In this document: one piece after another, positions 42,537-54,844 of the stretch
How the letters are laid out: each line of letters begins with the position of its first letter
Position numbering within the stretch: the first letter of the stretch is position 1
Source of the DNA: Gammaproteobacteria bacterium
GTDB taxonomy: Bacteria; Pseudomonadota; Gammaproteobacteria; UBA6429; Thiohalophilaceae
Length of the DNA stretch: 64,000 nucleotides
Assembly (NCBI GenBank): GCA_024275915.1
Contig: JAJRYG010000090.1
Span: forward strand, 1-64,000
Direction of reading: 5' to 3'
Made by a program: the position numbers and the translations under genes
Notes under the pieces: model-generated
Databases searched by the model: none
The model's input: the letters and a program-made list of their open reading frames with translations, nothing else
Told to the model about the DNA's origin: nothing

Positions 42537-43682
42537 ATGTCTGCGCCCCCTGCCTGGCTGGACGATGCCCCCGAACTTCGCAAGCTGCTGGGAACCTTTC
42601 TTGACCGGCTGGATCGGCAGCCAGCCAGCGCGCGTAAAAATGCCTTGGCCCTGACCTTGAACGACAAGACCCTGCCCGAGCTGTTCGGGCCGGGCGAGCA
42701 GGCCGACAGGTTGTGGGACTGGCTGCGCAGTCTGGCCGAGGATCACGGTGTCCTTGCGATCCGGCCTGACGACAAGCGCAACCCGCTGGACCCAGAATAT
42801 CTGGGTGCGCGCTTGCGCCTGCGCAAAGGGGGGGAGGCGATCCTGCGCGCCTGGCTGGGACGCCCGGCGGGCCGCTCGCCCCTGCAGCAGTGGAGGAAGA
42901 GCGTGACGGCGGCGGGGCAGTTTGCCGGCAGCGTTGCGAAGCTGGCGGCTCATCGCATCGTTCTGCCGGGCTGGAGCGACGCCCAGGTGGTGGCAGGCTT
43001 CGTCTGCCTGGGCCGCCAGCCCGGTGGCCTGAGCCTGCGCCAGTTGAGCAGCCGCTGCTTTGCCGGCGATTCCAAGTTTCTCGACAACCGCGAGGATCTG
43101 ATCCGTGAACTGTACCCGGAACGGGTCATCGCACCACGGCCGGTGATGGTCAGTGTGTTTCTGCCAGCCAGGATCGAGGGCGTGCTGTTCATCGAAAACC
43201 AGGACAGTTACCTGCAGGCCGTGAGCGACGAATTGGGCACACGGCACAAGTTCGCTCTGGTGTACGCGGCGGGTTTCCGTGGCAGCGCAGGGCGGATACG
43301 CCAGCGTGAAGGTGTGAGCCTGCACTACCACGGTGCCAGCGCCATGAACGGGCAGGCGCAACTGGAGGCCTGGTGGTTCGGGCCGGACACCGCCGGCTGG
43401 CCCTGCTGGTTCTGGGGTGACCTGGACTATGCCGGCATGGGGATCCTCAAGGCCTTCAGACAGCGCTTCGGCAACATGCAGGCCTGGCAGCCGGGCTACC
43501 GGCCCATGCTCGACCGGCTGCAAAAGGGCCAGGGCCACGCCCCGGCCATGACCGACAAACAGGCCCAGACCGATCCCGGCAGCACCGGCTGCGACTATGC
43601 CGATACCGTACTGCTACCGCTCATGCGCCAGCATGGCATGTTCGTGGATCAGGAAGGCACGCAAGGGGTGAGTGACGGGTGA
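42537..43682 (+). CDS. jetD: Wadjet JetD / MksG-like TOPRIM nuclease (DUF3322/DUF2220-like)
   Basis: TOPRIM acidic motifs GVLFIENQDSY and WFWGDLDYAGMGIL; follows jetC on the same strand. Confidence 0.92.
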   Translation: MSAPPAWLDDAPELRKLLGTFLDRLDRQPASARKNALALTLNDKTLPELFGPGEQADRLWDWLRSLAEDHGVLAIRPDDKRNPLDPEYLGARLRLRKGGEAILRAWLGRPAGRSPLQQWRKSVTAAGQFAGSVAKLAAHRIVLPGWSDAQVVAGFVCLGRQPGGLSLRQLSSRCFAGDSKFLDNREDLIRELYPERVIAPRPVMVSVFLPARIEGVLFIENQDSYLQAVSDELGTRHKFALVYAAGFRGSAGRIRQREGVSLHYHGASAMNGQAQLEAWWFGPDTAGWPCWFWGDLDYAGMGILKAFRQRFGNMQAWQPGYRPMLDRLQKGQGHAPAMTDKQAQTDPGSTGCDYADTVLLPLMRQHGMFVDQEGTQGVSDG

Positions 43683-43690
43683 CGAGGATC
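43668..43690 (+). repeat. Heptameric repeat, TGACGAG family
   Basis: GTGAGTGACGGGTGACGAGG overlapping the jetD stop codon. Confidence 0.55.
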
Positions 43691-43702
43691 AGGGATATTC
43701 CG

Positions 43703-43845
43703 TCATGCCAGCGCAGGCTGGCATCTAGGAAGGGGTGGGATTGAGAAAAAGGGCAAATTCGTTGCCACGAACCCCCTTGTTGCCATCGACAAGCCACCAT
43801 GCCCGCCGAAGCCTCCCTGGATTCCGGCCTTCGCCGGAATGACGA
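43703..43845. repeat. Two short palindromic intergenic repeats
   Basis: GTCATGCCAGCGCAGGCTGGCATC and CTGGATTCCGGCCTTCGCCGGAATGAC. Confidence 0.7.
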
Positions 43846-43975
43846 TGGAACATGGTACCGTCAGGGTTCCCGCGACCGATGCGCCTCCATGCGTCGGCAC
43901 ATCCTGCAAGAATATAATCCGGCGGTAGGATGCCGCTGAGCAAGTCGAAGCGCATCGAACGTCCGCCAGGGGGGG

Positions 43976-45268
43976 TCAGAACGCTGCGTCGAAGCCTACC
44001 AGGGCGTAGTTCTCCGAGGTCAGGTGGCCGGTCCAGTACTGGCCGGTTTTATCCTGTACGTCGAGGAAGTCGCCATTGACTTCGATAATGCCCTTGACGT
44101 TGCGCATGAAGTAATAGGATGCCGTGAAGGTCAGCGCGTTGATGTCAATGCCTTCATAGACCGTGTCGGTATTTTTCAGATCGCCGGCATCGGCATAGTT
44201 GTAGAGGAAGGAAAAGACCCAGCGCTGGCTATGTACGTAATCCACCCCGGCAAAGCTACCAAACCAGTCATAGCTCTTGCCTACATCTATGAAGTCATCC
44301 CACTGATTCCAGATGGCCTGCACGAACCAGTAGACCTTGGCGTTGACGTTACCCGAAAGATCCACGCCATAGGCGATCTTCGGCGTATCCCGCGTTCCGC
44401 TGCTGGAGATCCCCGCATAGTTCTTCTGGGTACCGGCATAGCCGAACAGGCCGATACTGACCGGGCCGGCATCACCACCGAGGCGGCAGTAGAAAGCCTT
44501 GCCGTTGTCGTTGTCGAACAGATGGTCGGGACGTTTGTAGCCGGGACTGTTGATGGCGTAGTTCTGGTCGATGCCATTGCCATTGACCCAGCCCAGTGCC
44601 AGGTCGACCACATTGAAGTCGTAGTTGAAGGTGACGCCACGATCATAGGTCAGGCCGGCCATGCGGTAGACCATGAAATCCTGGAAGGTGAGGCGGGTTT
44701 CGCGGGGGAACATCAGATCGGACACCTGGTACTGGCCCAGCATCATGCCAATCTTGCTGCCAAACAGATCGTCATGGCTGAACCAGGCATCCTCGACGAT
44801 CACCTCACCATTGCCGCCCTTTTCGGCAAAGATGGCATAGAAGTAGTAGCTGATATGGTCCGACAGGGGTGCGCTGGAGAGCAGCTTGATGAGGTAGGGG
44901 CCCTGGAAGTCGGTGTTGGCGCTGACTTCCTCGCCGGTTTCGATGTTGATGTTCCTGGCTTCGCGCTGCTGCACATAGGCCTGGGCGCGGATGGCCAGGG
45001 GCACGCTGTCGGGCAGGGCCAGCATGTCGTCCCCGGTGGGGGTGGTGCTGTCTTTCCAGTTGGGCAAGCGGTAGTTGGACTTGACGAAATTTTCTCCAAA
45101 TTCATTCAGGCGCGGGAAGGCGGCGTGACAGGCGGTACAGGTCAGGCTGTATTTTCGGGCAAAGGCAGGAATGGCCTCGCTGCTGGTGGGGAGCATGCTC
45201 AACAGCAGTGCAATGAGCAGGCTGCCGAGAATCCAGTGACGTGAATGGATATTGTTCAGATATGGCAT
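43976..45268 (-). CDS. Outer-membrane porin with N-terminal monoheme c-type cytochrome motif (Cyc2-like architecture)
   Basis: Signal peptide, IPAFARKYSLTCTACHAAFPRLNEFGENF (CXXCH), then about 350 aa of beta-barrel-like sequence ending ALVGFDAAF. Confidence 0.7.
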   Translation of the reverse strand: MPYLNNIHSRHWILGSLLIALLLSMLPTSSEAIPAFARKYSLTCTACHAAFPRLNEFGENFVKSNYRLPNWKDSTTPTGDDMLALPDSVPLAIRAQAYVQQREARNINIETGEEVSANTDFQGPYLIKLLSSAPLSDHISYYFYAIFAEKGGNGEVIVEDAWFSHDDLFGSKIGMMLGQYQVSDLMFPRETRLTFQDFMVYRMAGLTYDRGVTFNYDFNVVDLALGWVNGNGIDQNYAINSPGYKRPDHLFDNDNGKAFYCRLGGDAGPVSIGLFGYAGTQKNYAGISSSGTRDTPKIAYGVDLSGNVNAKVYWFVQAIWNQWDDFIDVGKSYDWFGSFAGVDYVHSQRWVFSFLYNYADAGDLKNTDTVYEGIDINALTFTASYYFMRNVKGIIEVNGDFLDVQDKTGQYWTGHLTSENYALVGFDAAF

Positions 45269-52313: not shown

Positions 52314-53738
52314 ATGGACACTTATGATGTGGTGGTGATCGGTGCCGGCCCGGCCGGCTATGTGGCAGCCATACGCTGCGCCCAGCTGGGTCTGAAGACG
52401 GCCTGCGTGGATGACTGGCTCAACGAGCAGGGTGAACCGTCTCCCGGCGGTACCTGTCTGAACGTGGGCTGTATCCCTTCCAAGGTGCTGCTCGAATCCA
52501 CCCGGCTCTACCAGCATGCCCAGACCGGCCTGGCCGAGCATGGCATCGTCAGCCAGGGTGTGAGCATGCAACTGGATACCCTGCTTGCACGCAAGCAGCG
52601 CGTCGTCGGTGAACTGACTGGTGGTGTGCGGCTGCTGCTCCAGGCCAATGGGGTTACACTGATCAGCGGGCGGGGAAAACTGCTCGCCGCCGACCGGGTC
52701 GAGGTCAGCCACAATGGCAACACTCAAACCCTGTCGGCCAGGCACGTCATTCTGGCGCCGGGCTCGCGGCCCCGCGAGCACAAGCTGCTGCCGGTGGACC
52801 AGGAGCGTATCGTTGATTCAACCGGTGCCCTGGCCTTCGAGGCGGTACCCGAATCCCTAGCGGTGATCGGCGCCGGTGTGATCGGTCTGGAGCTGGGCAG
52901 TGTCTGGCAGCGGCTGGGCAGCAAGGTTCATCTGTTCAAGACCAGCGGCGGGTTTCTTTCTGCGGCGGACCGTGACCTTGCCGAACAGTTGCGAACGGAT
53001 TTTGCCGGCCACGGTTTTGCCTTTCATTTTGAGAGCTACATCACGGGCTGCAAGGTCGACGACCAGGGTGTCACGCTGGAGTACAAGACCAAGGAGCAGA
53101 CTTTCCGCGAAACATTCGACCGGGTTCTGGTTGCCATTGGCCGGGTGCCCAATACCGAGGACCTGTTTGCCAGTCAGACAGGCCTGCAATGTGATCCGCG
53201 AGGCTTCATCAAGGTGGATGAACAGTGCCGAACTTCACTGGCCAACGTGTATGCCATCGGCGACGCGGTACCCGGGCCGATGCTGGCCCACAAGGGTTCG
53301 GAAGAAGGCCTGATGGTCGCCAGTCTGATTGCCGGCCAGTTTGCCGAAGTGAATCACGACACCATTCCCTTCGTGATTTATACCCACCCGGAAGTGGCCT
53401 GGGTGGGGGCCACGGAGCAGGCTCTTCAGGACAGTGGCCGAGCCTACCGGGTGGGCAACTTTTCCTTCGCCGCCAATGGCCGGGCCCGGGCCATTGGCGA
53501 AACGACAGGCCTGATCAAGGTACTGGCCGATGCGCAAAGCGACCAGATCCTCGGTGTGCACATCATCGGTCCGCAGGCGGCCGAGCTGATCAGCCAGGCG
53601 GTGCAGGCCATGAACTTTGGCGCCAGCAGTGAAGACATCGCCCTGACCCTGTTTGCCCACCCCTCCCTGTCGGAAGTGCTGCACGAAGCCGCCATGGACG
53701 TGAACCTCATGGCCATCCACAAGGCCCGGCCACGCTGA
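52314..53738 (+). CDS. lpdA: Dihydrolipoyl dehydrogenase
   Basis: DVVVIGAGPAGYVAAIRCAQLG; GGTCLNVGCIPSKVLL. Confidence 0.97.
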   Translation: MDTYDVVVIGAGPAGYVAAIRCAQLGLKTACVDDWLNEQGEPSPGGTCLNVGCIPSKVLLESTRLYQHAQTGLAEHGIVSQGVSMQLDTLLARKQRVVGELTGGVRLLLQANGVTLISGRGKLLAADRVEVSHNGNTQTLSARHVILAPGSRPREHKLLPVDQERIVDSTGALAFEAVPESLAVIGAGVIGLELGSVWQRLGSKVHLFKTSGGFLSAADRDLAEQLRTDFAGHGFAFHFESYITGCKVDDQGVTLEYKTKEQTFRETFDRVLVAIGRVPNTEDLFASQTGLQCDPRGFIKVDEQCRTSLANVYAIGDAVPGPMLAHKGSEEGLMVASLIAGQFAEVNHDTIPFVIYTHPEVAWVGATEQALQDSGRAYRVGNFSFAANGRARAIGETTGLIKVLADAQSDQILGVHIIGPQAAELISQAVQAMNFGASSEDIALTLFAHPSLSEVLHEAAMDVNLMAIHKARPR

Positions 53739-53799: not shown

Positions 53800-53827
53800 T
53801 GAACTTTCCCCAACCCCCCCGGTCAGA
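53800..53827 (+). promoter_or_regulatory. Candidate sigmaE/AlgU-type promoter
   Basis: TGAACTT (53800-53806), 16-nt spacer, TCAGA (53823-53827). Confidence 0.5.
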
Positions 53828-53832
53828 CTCTA

Positions 53833-53953
53833 CAGTGTTCATATGCACTATTCCCGCAACCCTCCCAGTGGGAATTCAAGCCCGGTTTCCCCAAAGCCGG
53901 GTGTATATTCACCCCGGAACCCTTCTATCCCCAAATGTTCCGGGGTTTTTTTT
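53833..53953 (+). ncRNA. Candidate Hfq-type trans-acting sRNA
   Basis: ATTCCC/GGGAAT hairpin with C-rich loop, CCCGGTTT/AAAGCCGGG hairpin, then an intrinsic terminator with T8; sits beside engB. Confidence 0.5.
53911..53953 (+). terminator. Intrinsic terminator downstream of lpdA / candidate sRNA
   Basis: ACCCCGGAAC ... GTTCCGGGGT followed by TTTTTTT. Confidence 0.85.
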
Positions 53954-54093
53954 GTCTGGAATTTACAAAGGTTCACAGATCCCGGCTGCGCCCTGGAGAC
54001 AAGCCGCCTATGCTTTGAGGGCACATGAATGCTCTGGCGTCTGCCCGCTGGGCAGACGCCTTCGACCCCGGAATCGATTACCCCTCATCCCTG

Positions 54094-54115
54094 CCCCGTT
54101 CCGGGGTTATTTTTT
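54094..54115 (+). terminator. Second intrinsic terminator, T-tract overlapping the engB 3' end
   Basis: CCCCG TTC CGGGG then TTATTTTTT. Confidence 0.6.
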
Positions 54116-54844
54116 GTCACTGGCAAAATCCAGCCAGTCGTCAAGCACCTGCTGAGCCTCGTCGATGCCCATTTTTTTCAGGGCCGAAAACTGCTGCACA
54201 CTGACCTGGGGCTGGTTCTCGACAGCTTTCTTGACCTTGAGGTAGGCACTGGCGGCGGCACCGCGCTTGAGCTTGTCGGCCTTGGTGAGCAGGATGTGCA
54301 CCGGCAGTTCACGCCATTGGCACCATTCGAGCATCTGCTGGTCGAAGTCGGTGAGTGGATGGCGAATGTCCATCAGCAGGATCAGGCCACGCAGGGACTG
54401 GCGCTCGACCAAGTAACGGGACATGGCCTGGCCCCACTGGGCACGGATCCGGTCGGGCACCCTGGCGTAGCCGTAGCCGGGCAGATCCACCAGACGGCGC
54501 TGTTCGTCCAGTGCAAAGAACACCAGATGCTGGGTGCGGCCGGGGGTCTTGCTGGTGCGGGCCAGGGCCTTGCGCTGAGTCAGGGTGTTGAGGGCGCTGG
54601 ACTTGCCGGCGTTGGAGCGGCCGGCAAAGGCCACTTCCTGACCTAGATCAGGTGGTGCCTGTTCCGGTTTTGGTACGCTGACAAGGAATTGTGCCTTATT
54701 ATATCGAGCCGGGTTGTTCCGGGGTTTCTGTGGGGGGTTCTGTGTTGAATTCACTGGGGAAAACTCCGGAAAAATTGGCTCTGATATCAAAAAGGATTTA
54801 GCCTCTGGGCTTGAGTGGATTGCCGGTGCTGTTATAATGCCCAC
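54107..54844 (-). CDS. engB: Ribosome biogenesis GTP-binding protein YihA/YsxC (EngB)
   Basis: [40 protein letters not shown]. Exact start uncertain. Confidence 0.95.

Follow-up and report, generated by a model that had tools for sequence, protein, structure and literature searches.

A sigma-E-type small RNA gene beside engB, with a tandem partner, in a proposed polA–engB family of gammaproteobacterial RNAs

The window, as the whole 64,000-nucleotide stretch of DNA analysed is called here, almost certainly carries at 53801-53953 a real small RNA (sRNA) gene of sigma-E type that belongs to a polA–engB family. Judged from its sequence, this gene, sRNA1, is a small regulatory RNA gene absent from earlier listings. 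Elements of this kind are known; what is new is an unlisted member, a tandem partner with a different promoter (sRNA2), and evidence joining three named RNAs and many unlisted ones into one polA–engB family. Taken as a whole, the locus is quite probably best explained as a sigma-E-driven autonomous sRNA gene of this family that acts by loop masking and has a tandem sibling.

Searches were carried out with two covariance models: R1, trained on the GTDB family of the window only, and R2, a class-wide model whose training set includes the window copy and one anti-hemB-like sequence (L098). E-values from these models are rough because their calibration was shortened. The features of the locus are as follows.

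52314..53738, forward strand: lpdA (ORF), upstream neighbour in the window; many relatives have polA there
53801..53827, forward strand: sigma-E/AlgU-type promoter, with -35 GAACTT at 53801-53806, a 16-nt spacer and -10 TCAGA at 53823-53827
near 53833-53834, forward strand: predicted start of sRNA1, placed from the promoter
53834..53953, forward strand: sRNA1, about 120 nt, from R1 (95.1 bits), R2 (92.3 bits, rough E 4.7e-20), fold and covariation
53834..53849, forward strand: sRNA1 hairpin 1 (AGUGU...GCACU); class-wide, 91% of cells paired and compensatory changes in 4 of 4 pairs
53850..53875, forward strand: sRNA1 hairpin 2, whose loop contains AACCCUCCC and looks anti-Shine-Dalgarno-like; class-wide covariation in 8 of 8 pairs
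53880..53902, forward strand: sRNA1 hairpin 3, loop UCCCCAA; 5 of 5 pairs covary class-wide
53911..53953, forward strand: sRNA1 hairpin 4, the intrinsic terminator, which has AUCCCCAAAU in its loop and ends in T8 at 53946-53953; 8 of 9 pairs covary
53962..53977, forward strand: conserved box TTTACAAAGGTTCACA upstream of sRNA2, in which TTnACA is directly repeated at a 10-bp step
54009-54014, forward strand: -10-like TATGCT, about 30 bp after the box at 53962-53977
54020..54116 (about), forward strand: sRNA2, same family, tandem to sRNA1 (R2 32.3 bits, rough E 5.1e-6, at 54007-54115)
54036-54060, forward strand: sRNA2 hairpin
about 54064-54108, forward strand: sRNA2 terminator with CCCC/CCC loop and T6 at 54110-54115, overlapping the engB 3' end
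54107..54844, reverse strand: engB/yihA (ORF), convergent neighbour and synteny anchor; EngB is present in 40 of 40 GTDB-family genomes

A first-pass annotation made from the letters alone had reported TGAACTT at 53800-53806, a 16-nt spacer and TCAGA at 53823-53827, followed by two hairpins, ATTCCC...CCCTCCC...GGGAAT and CCCGGTTT/AAAGCCGGG, and by a terminator with T8 at its end, and all of these are present. Its named hairpins stand, but the one that it took to be the first is preceded by the small hairpin at 53834-53849, which brings the number to four. It was also correct that the RNA has kept engB as a neighbour and lost polA, with engB adjacent and convergent and lpdA, not polA, as the upstream gene.

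The RNA at 53834-53955 has a folding energy of -45.0 kcal/mol compared with -27.0 kcal/mol for shuffles (z = -5.45), and none of 200 shuffles was equally stable. A row of hairpins with C-run loops is common to the individual folds of all 32 copies collected, and in sRNA1 itself three of the four hairpins have such loops. The CCUCCC of the hairpin 2 loop, whose conservation the first-pass annotation had named as a check, shows almost no variation among the copies in the GTDB family. Plain MAFFT alignments put hairpin 3 in the wrong place, and individual folds and a model-fitted alignment were used instead. Across 94 sequences aligned class-wide by fitting to the model, compensatory changes are found in 25 of 26 base pairs, and 92.1% of cells are paired, against 70.4% when shuffled and at most 53% after the partner strand was slid; such fitting favours the pairs of the model, but both controls, slide and shuffle, fall short by wide margins.

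The promoter of sRNA1 is the only match to GAACTT-N15..17-TCnnA on both strands of the window, which contains two weaker GAACCA matches besides. Among the 32 aligned copies, 31 have GAAC(T/C)(T/A)-N16-TC with a spacer of random sequence, a count that is partly circular for the N16 spacing, as these copies were chosen with a promoter pattern allowing 14–20 nt. Two further sets provide non-circular tests because their copies were found via the RNA body or via a model whose first position is the transcript start. The 14 copies that blastn detected through strong similarity to the RNA body each have the promoter upstream, most of those alignments beginning downstream of it. Class-wide, 54 of 73 one-per-family representatives have a loose sigma-E promoter and 33 of 73 a strict one, where random windows of the same 73 loci give expectations of 0.7 and 0.2; R1, with which these members were found, starts at the transcript start and contains neither the promoter nor polA/engB synteny. 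The genome of the window encodes an RpoE ortholog (325 bits against a cut-off of 236), which is followed by RseA/RseB-like (anti-sigma-like) ORFs.

Within the GTDB family of the window, R2 matches were found in 39 of 40 genomes, including all 22 that are near-complete. Of 58 genomes searched by blastn with 171 bases, 15 contained the RNA, counting that of the window. The engB neighbourhoods show a recurring order of polA (or another gene), sRNA1, sRNA2 and convergent engB, with polA replaced upstream by other genes in the window (lpdA) and its closest relatives. A scan of the genome collection for the loop-hairpin pattern returned 10 contigs, corresponding to the lineage of the window, a number that falls short of the true family size, given the variation in the loop motif; the named records with the loop hairpin include Thiohalophilus thiocyanatoxydans and metagenome-assembled genomes labelled Chromatiales or Gammaproteobacteria, which makes the family of the window the one to which Thiohalophilus belongs. 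Both models were selective: over 208 kb of loci R1 returned sRNA1 and sRNA2 only, plus a single 15-bit match, and R2 returned only the two RNAs within the window, plus a single 6-bit match.

Some loci in this set have unusual arrangements. In one genome EngB and both sRNAs are duplicated, on contigs of 40.7 kb and 2.5 Mb (G019:C1 and G019:C3). Four engB-adjacent loci of one genus, g13 (L044, L046, L047, L053), show long imperfect repeats downstream of the sRNAs, around the words CGTCCTGAGGAC and AATTTCGGCGTTATAAATTCACGAAAATCGG. At L061 (G015) the lone sRNA beside engB is of the sRNA2 type, and another match lies about 100 kb off on the same contig (G015:C10:122129-122252).

Beyond the family, R1 gave matches in 178 of 369 gammaproteobacterial genomes (E up to 1e-3, a rough value); with a model of a single family, such an RNA is picked up in roughly half of the genomes sampled, mostly with a sigma-E promoter. 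One representative was taken from each of 73 families with about 1.5 kb fetched, and the EngB G1 motif was found in 51, a PolA motif in 46 and at least one of the two in 63; the neighbours are in a different orientation in a few representatives (L093, L154, L158, L174). The class-wide members came from R1, with its single-family training, though the window copy sits in the training set of R2. The window RNA shows the marks of the polA–engB C-loop sRNA family, namely a full-length R2 match, adjacency to engB and a sigma-E-type promoter. The same RNA is flanked by polA and engB in many relatives, and the proposal of the first-pass annotation that the ErsA/Spot 42 locus holds an sRNA gene preceded by a sigma-E-type promoter is borne out.

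None of the Rfam models matched the window at gathering thresholds. The RNA falls below those of ErsA (RF01719), sX13 (RF02232) and anti-hemB (RF02837), and because it passes none of the three it was filed in the broader family and under none of these names. Rfam keeps the three apart with no clan listed for them, and in the literature searched no paper names any two of anti-hemB, ErsA, sX13 and Pseudomon-1 together. Other sub-threshold Rfam matches in the window (weev_FSE, Scr3202, suhB, NsiR1 and similar) were set aside as chance hairpin matches.

Each of the named RNAs shares part of its organisation with sRNA1. The sX13 RNA of Xanthomonadaceae is about 115 nt long, adjoins polA, and has three stems with apical C-rich loops (PMC3771888), whereas the window RNA, with similar stems and loops, adjoins engB instead. 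R2 found sX13 in three genomes with 38–40 bits at the same coordinates as RF02232. In the other direction, RF02232 gave nothing on the window at gathering or at E up to 10 and nothing in its own genome, and no clear GAACTT-N16 promoter was seen in the Xanthomonadaceae-like sX13 copies read. In its three C-rich loops the window RNA is closer to sX13 than to ErsA or Spot 42. The anti-hemB RNA (Burkholderia RNA 7), which is expressed in B. cenocepacia as ncS04 (PMC5688073), is like the family in having a CCCGC-CCUCCCU-GCGGG hairpin, a terminator and a position beside engB, and several of its copies carry GAACTTTT-type promoters; its model is shorter, at 81 positions. It is the best Rfam match by E-value on the sRNA1 stretch, at 25.4 bits and below its cut-off of 49.5. 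R2 matched anti-hemB in some ten genomes, with many of the matches next to engB, a result not fully independent since L098 is in its training set; R1 alone found L098 at 71 bits, and L098 passes the anti-hemB cut-off (51.7 against 49.5).

Spot 42 (spf) of E. coli has the same orientation as the window RNA, with polA upstream and yihA/engB convergent, and, unlike it, has no C-rich loops. It is transcribed from a sigma-70 promoter under CRP control. The spf gene is the top R2 match in its 6-kb stretch of E. coli, yet a weak one (18.1 bits, mainly in the terminator), and the search of the window RNA with the Spot 42 model, suggested by the earlier naming of the locus, gave no match among results at E up to 10.

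The covariance models point to ErsA, sX13 and anti-hemB as lineage-specific members of one ancient polA–engB sRNA family, Gammaproteobacteria being taken in the GTDB sense that includes the Burkholderiales. A wider scenario is favoured by a small margin only: one polA–engB sRNA gene, ancestrally sigma-E-controlled and acting through C-loops, would have existed since the early Gammaproteobacteria (Burkholderiales included), with ErsA, sX13, anti-hemB and possibly Spot 42 as descendants rewired in promoter and pairing mode, and tandem duplication in the lineage of the window and some others would have produced copies that differ in promoter, letting two stress signals work through a single set of anti-Shine-Dalgarno loops.

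That the window RNA is a plain ErsA ortholog, acting as ErsA does through a U-rich single-stranded linker with Hfq, appears unlikely. ErsA (Pseudomon-1) of Pseudomonas lies in the polA–engB interval, of which the window retains engB without polA and many relatives retain both, and it shares with the window RNA a sigma-22/sigma-E promoter and similar terminal hairpins with C-run loops; the ErsA promoter in L176, TGAACTT-N16-GTCATAG, matches that of the window in motif and spacing at the sequence level. R2 scores 31.3 bits on ErsA in a Pseudomonas-like genome (where RF01719 scores 121 bits), and Hfq is found in 37 of 40 GTDB-family genomes and in 22 of 22 near-complete ones, with none found in the 77%-complete assembly of the window itself and one present in a congener. 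However, in the search with the ErsA model that the first-pass annotation had called for, the RNA scored 23.4 bits with RF01719, short of the cut-off of 50, which none of the 40 GTDB-family genomes reached either, and this goes against naming it ErsA. The window RNA also has C-run loops in three hairpins, a CCUCCC hairpin that ErsA as modelled does not have, and no linker comparable to the U-rich one of ErsA. A simpler reading, in which the hairpins are only the lpdA terminator or a fragment of the lpdA 3'-UTR, has in its favour that the same strand carries lpdA, whose end is 96 nt upstream. It is scarcely credible and was rejected because the RNA and its promoter persist when the upstream gene is polA or any of several other, unrelated ones; the conserved promoter and upstream hairpins are, moreover, not needed by a terminator.

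It is also improbable that C-loop sRNAs evolved repeatedly in polA–engB intervals, with the model seeing only shared hairpins and C-runs. The loops are of low complexity, and C-rich-loop sRNAs are known from unrelated bacteria, including the alpha-r7 and alpha-r14 sRNAs of Alphaproteobacteria, of which alpha-r7 lies near polA (PMC3771888). R2 gave weak matches in some Alphaproteobacteria, of which four examined had neither polA nor engB alongside; these were excluded from the members, and the ar14 model reaches 21.6 bits on the window RNA against a cut-off of 58.8. Against repeated origins, matches are full-length with the same hairpin order, promoter and locus in dozens of families, and bridging sequences come close to the cut-offs of sX13 and anti-hemB or exceed them. 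One such bridge is found among four tandem sRNA copies between polA and engB at L144/L185 (G209:C33:13148-13900), where one copy, at 48.3 bits under the sX13 model with its cut-off of 50, links sX13 to the rest of the family; R1 had picked up G209 without the help of R2. That sRNA1 is a protein-binding sponge or a small-peptide gene, like the SpfP gene of Spot 42, and does not pair with mRNA seems very improbable: ORFs of 61 and 129 amino acids, taken to be chance ones, overlap it and E. coli spf carries spfP, but indels between relatives are not multiples of three, the stems covary, and the loops are C-rich with no GGA loops of Csr type.

The preferred reading, an autonomous sRNA gene of the polA–engB family, comes with a mechanism in which transcription, mRNA pairing, target class and the signal for sRNA2 may be pictured as follows. 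RNA polymerase with sigma-E (RpoE/AlgU) would transcribe 53801-53953 during envelope stress, and the rigid row of hairpins would present short single-stranded C-runs (CCCUCCC, UCCCC, AUCCCC) in loops. Each loop would be able to base-pair with G-rich sequence (GGGAGGG, GGGG) in or close to a ribosome-binding site, so that translation is blocked. Given sigma-E control, the targets would probably be mRNAs of abundant envelope proteins. Loop masking under sigma-E was proposed because the window RNA combines sX13-like loops with an ErsA-like promoter, and by analogy with sX13, whose C-rich loops act independently of Hfq to repress mRNAs that carry G-rich motifs close to the start codon (PMC3771888), it can be considered reasonably probable. 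ErsA pairs via its U-rich linker and needs Hfq (PMC8575079), repressing algC and oprD (PMC8395346), with anr and amrZ as further genes of its Hfq-dependent action, and since it does not use C-rich loops for this, the mode of action within the family may differ. The Hfq-type label given by the first-pass annotation is a putative one: sX13, nearest to the window RNA in architecture, does not need Hfq, and ErsA does. The one candidate target examined, hfq, which sX13 suggested, found no support: in 20 relatives its starts have ordinary CGGAGA-type sites with no G-rich motif or GGGG, and no consistent pairing above shuffles was found.

The first-pass annotation had found the first RNA of the locus and missed the second, sRNA2, which accompanies sRNA1 in most relatives. 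A box of the sRNA2 type (a TTTAAC/TTTACA direct repeat) lies upstream of 17 of 23 sRNA2 copies compared with 2.8% of random windows, and a sigma-E promoter was seen upstream of none of the 23. Its 10-bp direct-repeat motif suggests a resemblance to an OmpR/CpxR-type response-regulator site. With similar loops and a different promoter box, sRNA2 would allow a second signal to reach an overlapping target set.

Rfam coverage of these RNAs consists of scattered branches only, under three unconnected names. If the kinship proposed here is true, target data for ErsA and sX13 could be read as one system, and the change of promoter and pairing mode by an sRNA at a fixed locus would become testable.

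Tandem copies are also seen at L014 (G057:C49, about 43660-44046), in another family, where two sRNA copies each have their own GAACTT promoter. In a genome of another class of the same phylum (G570), an element at L196 1501-1635 has three hairpins with a CUCCUCCC loop in each, lies away from polA/engB, and resembles the alphaproteobacterial C-rich sRNAs.
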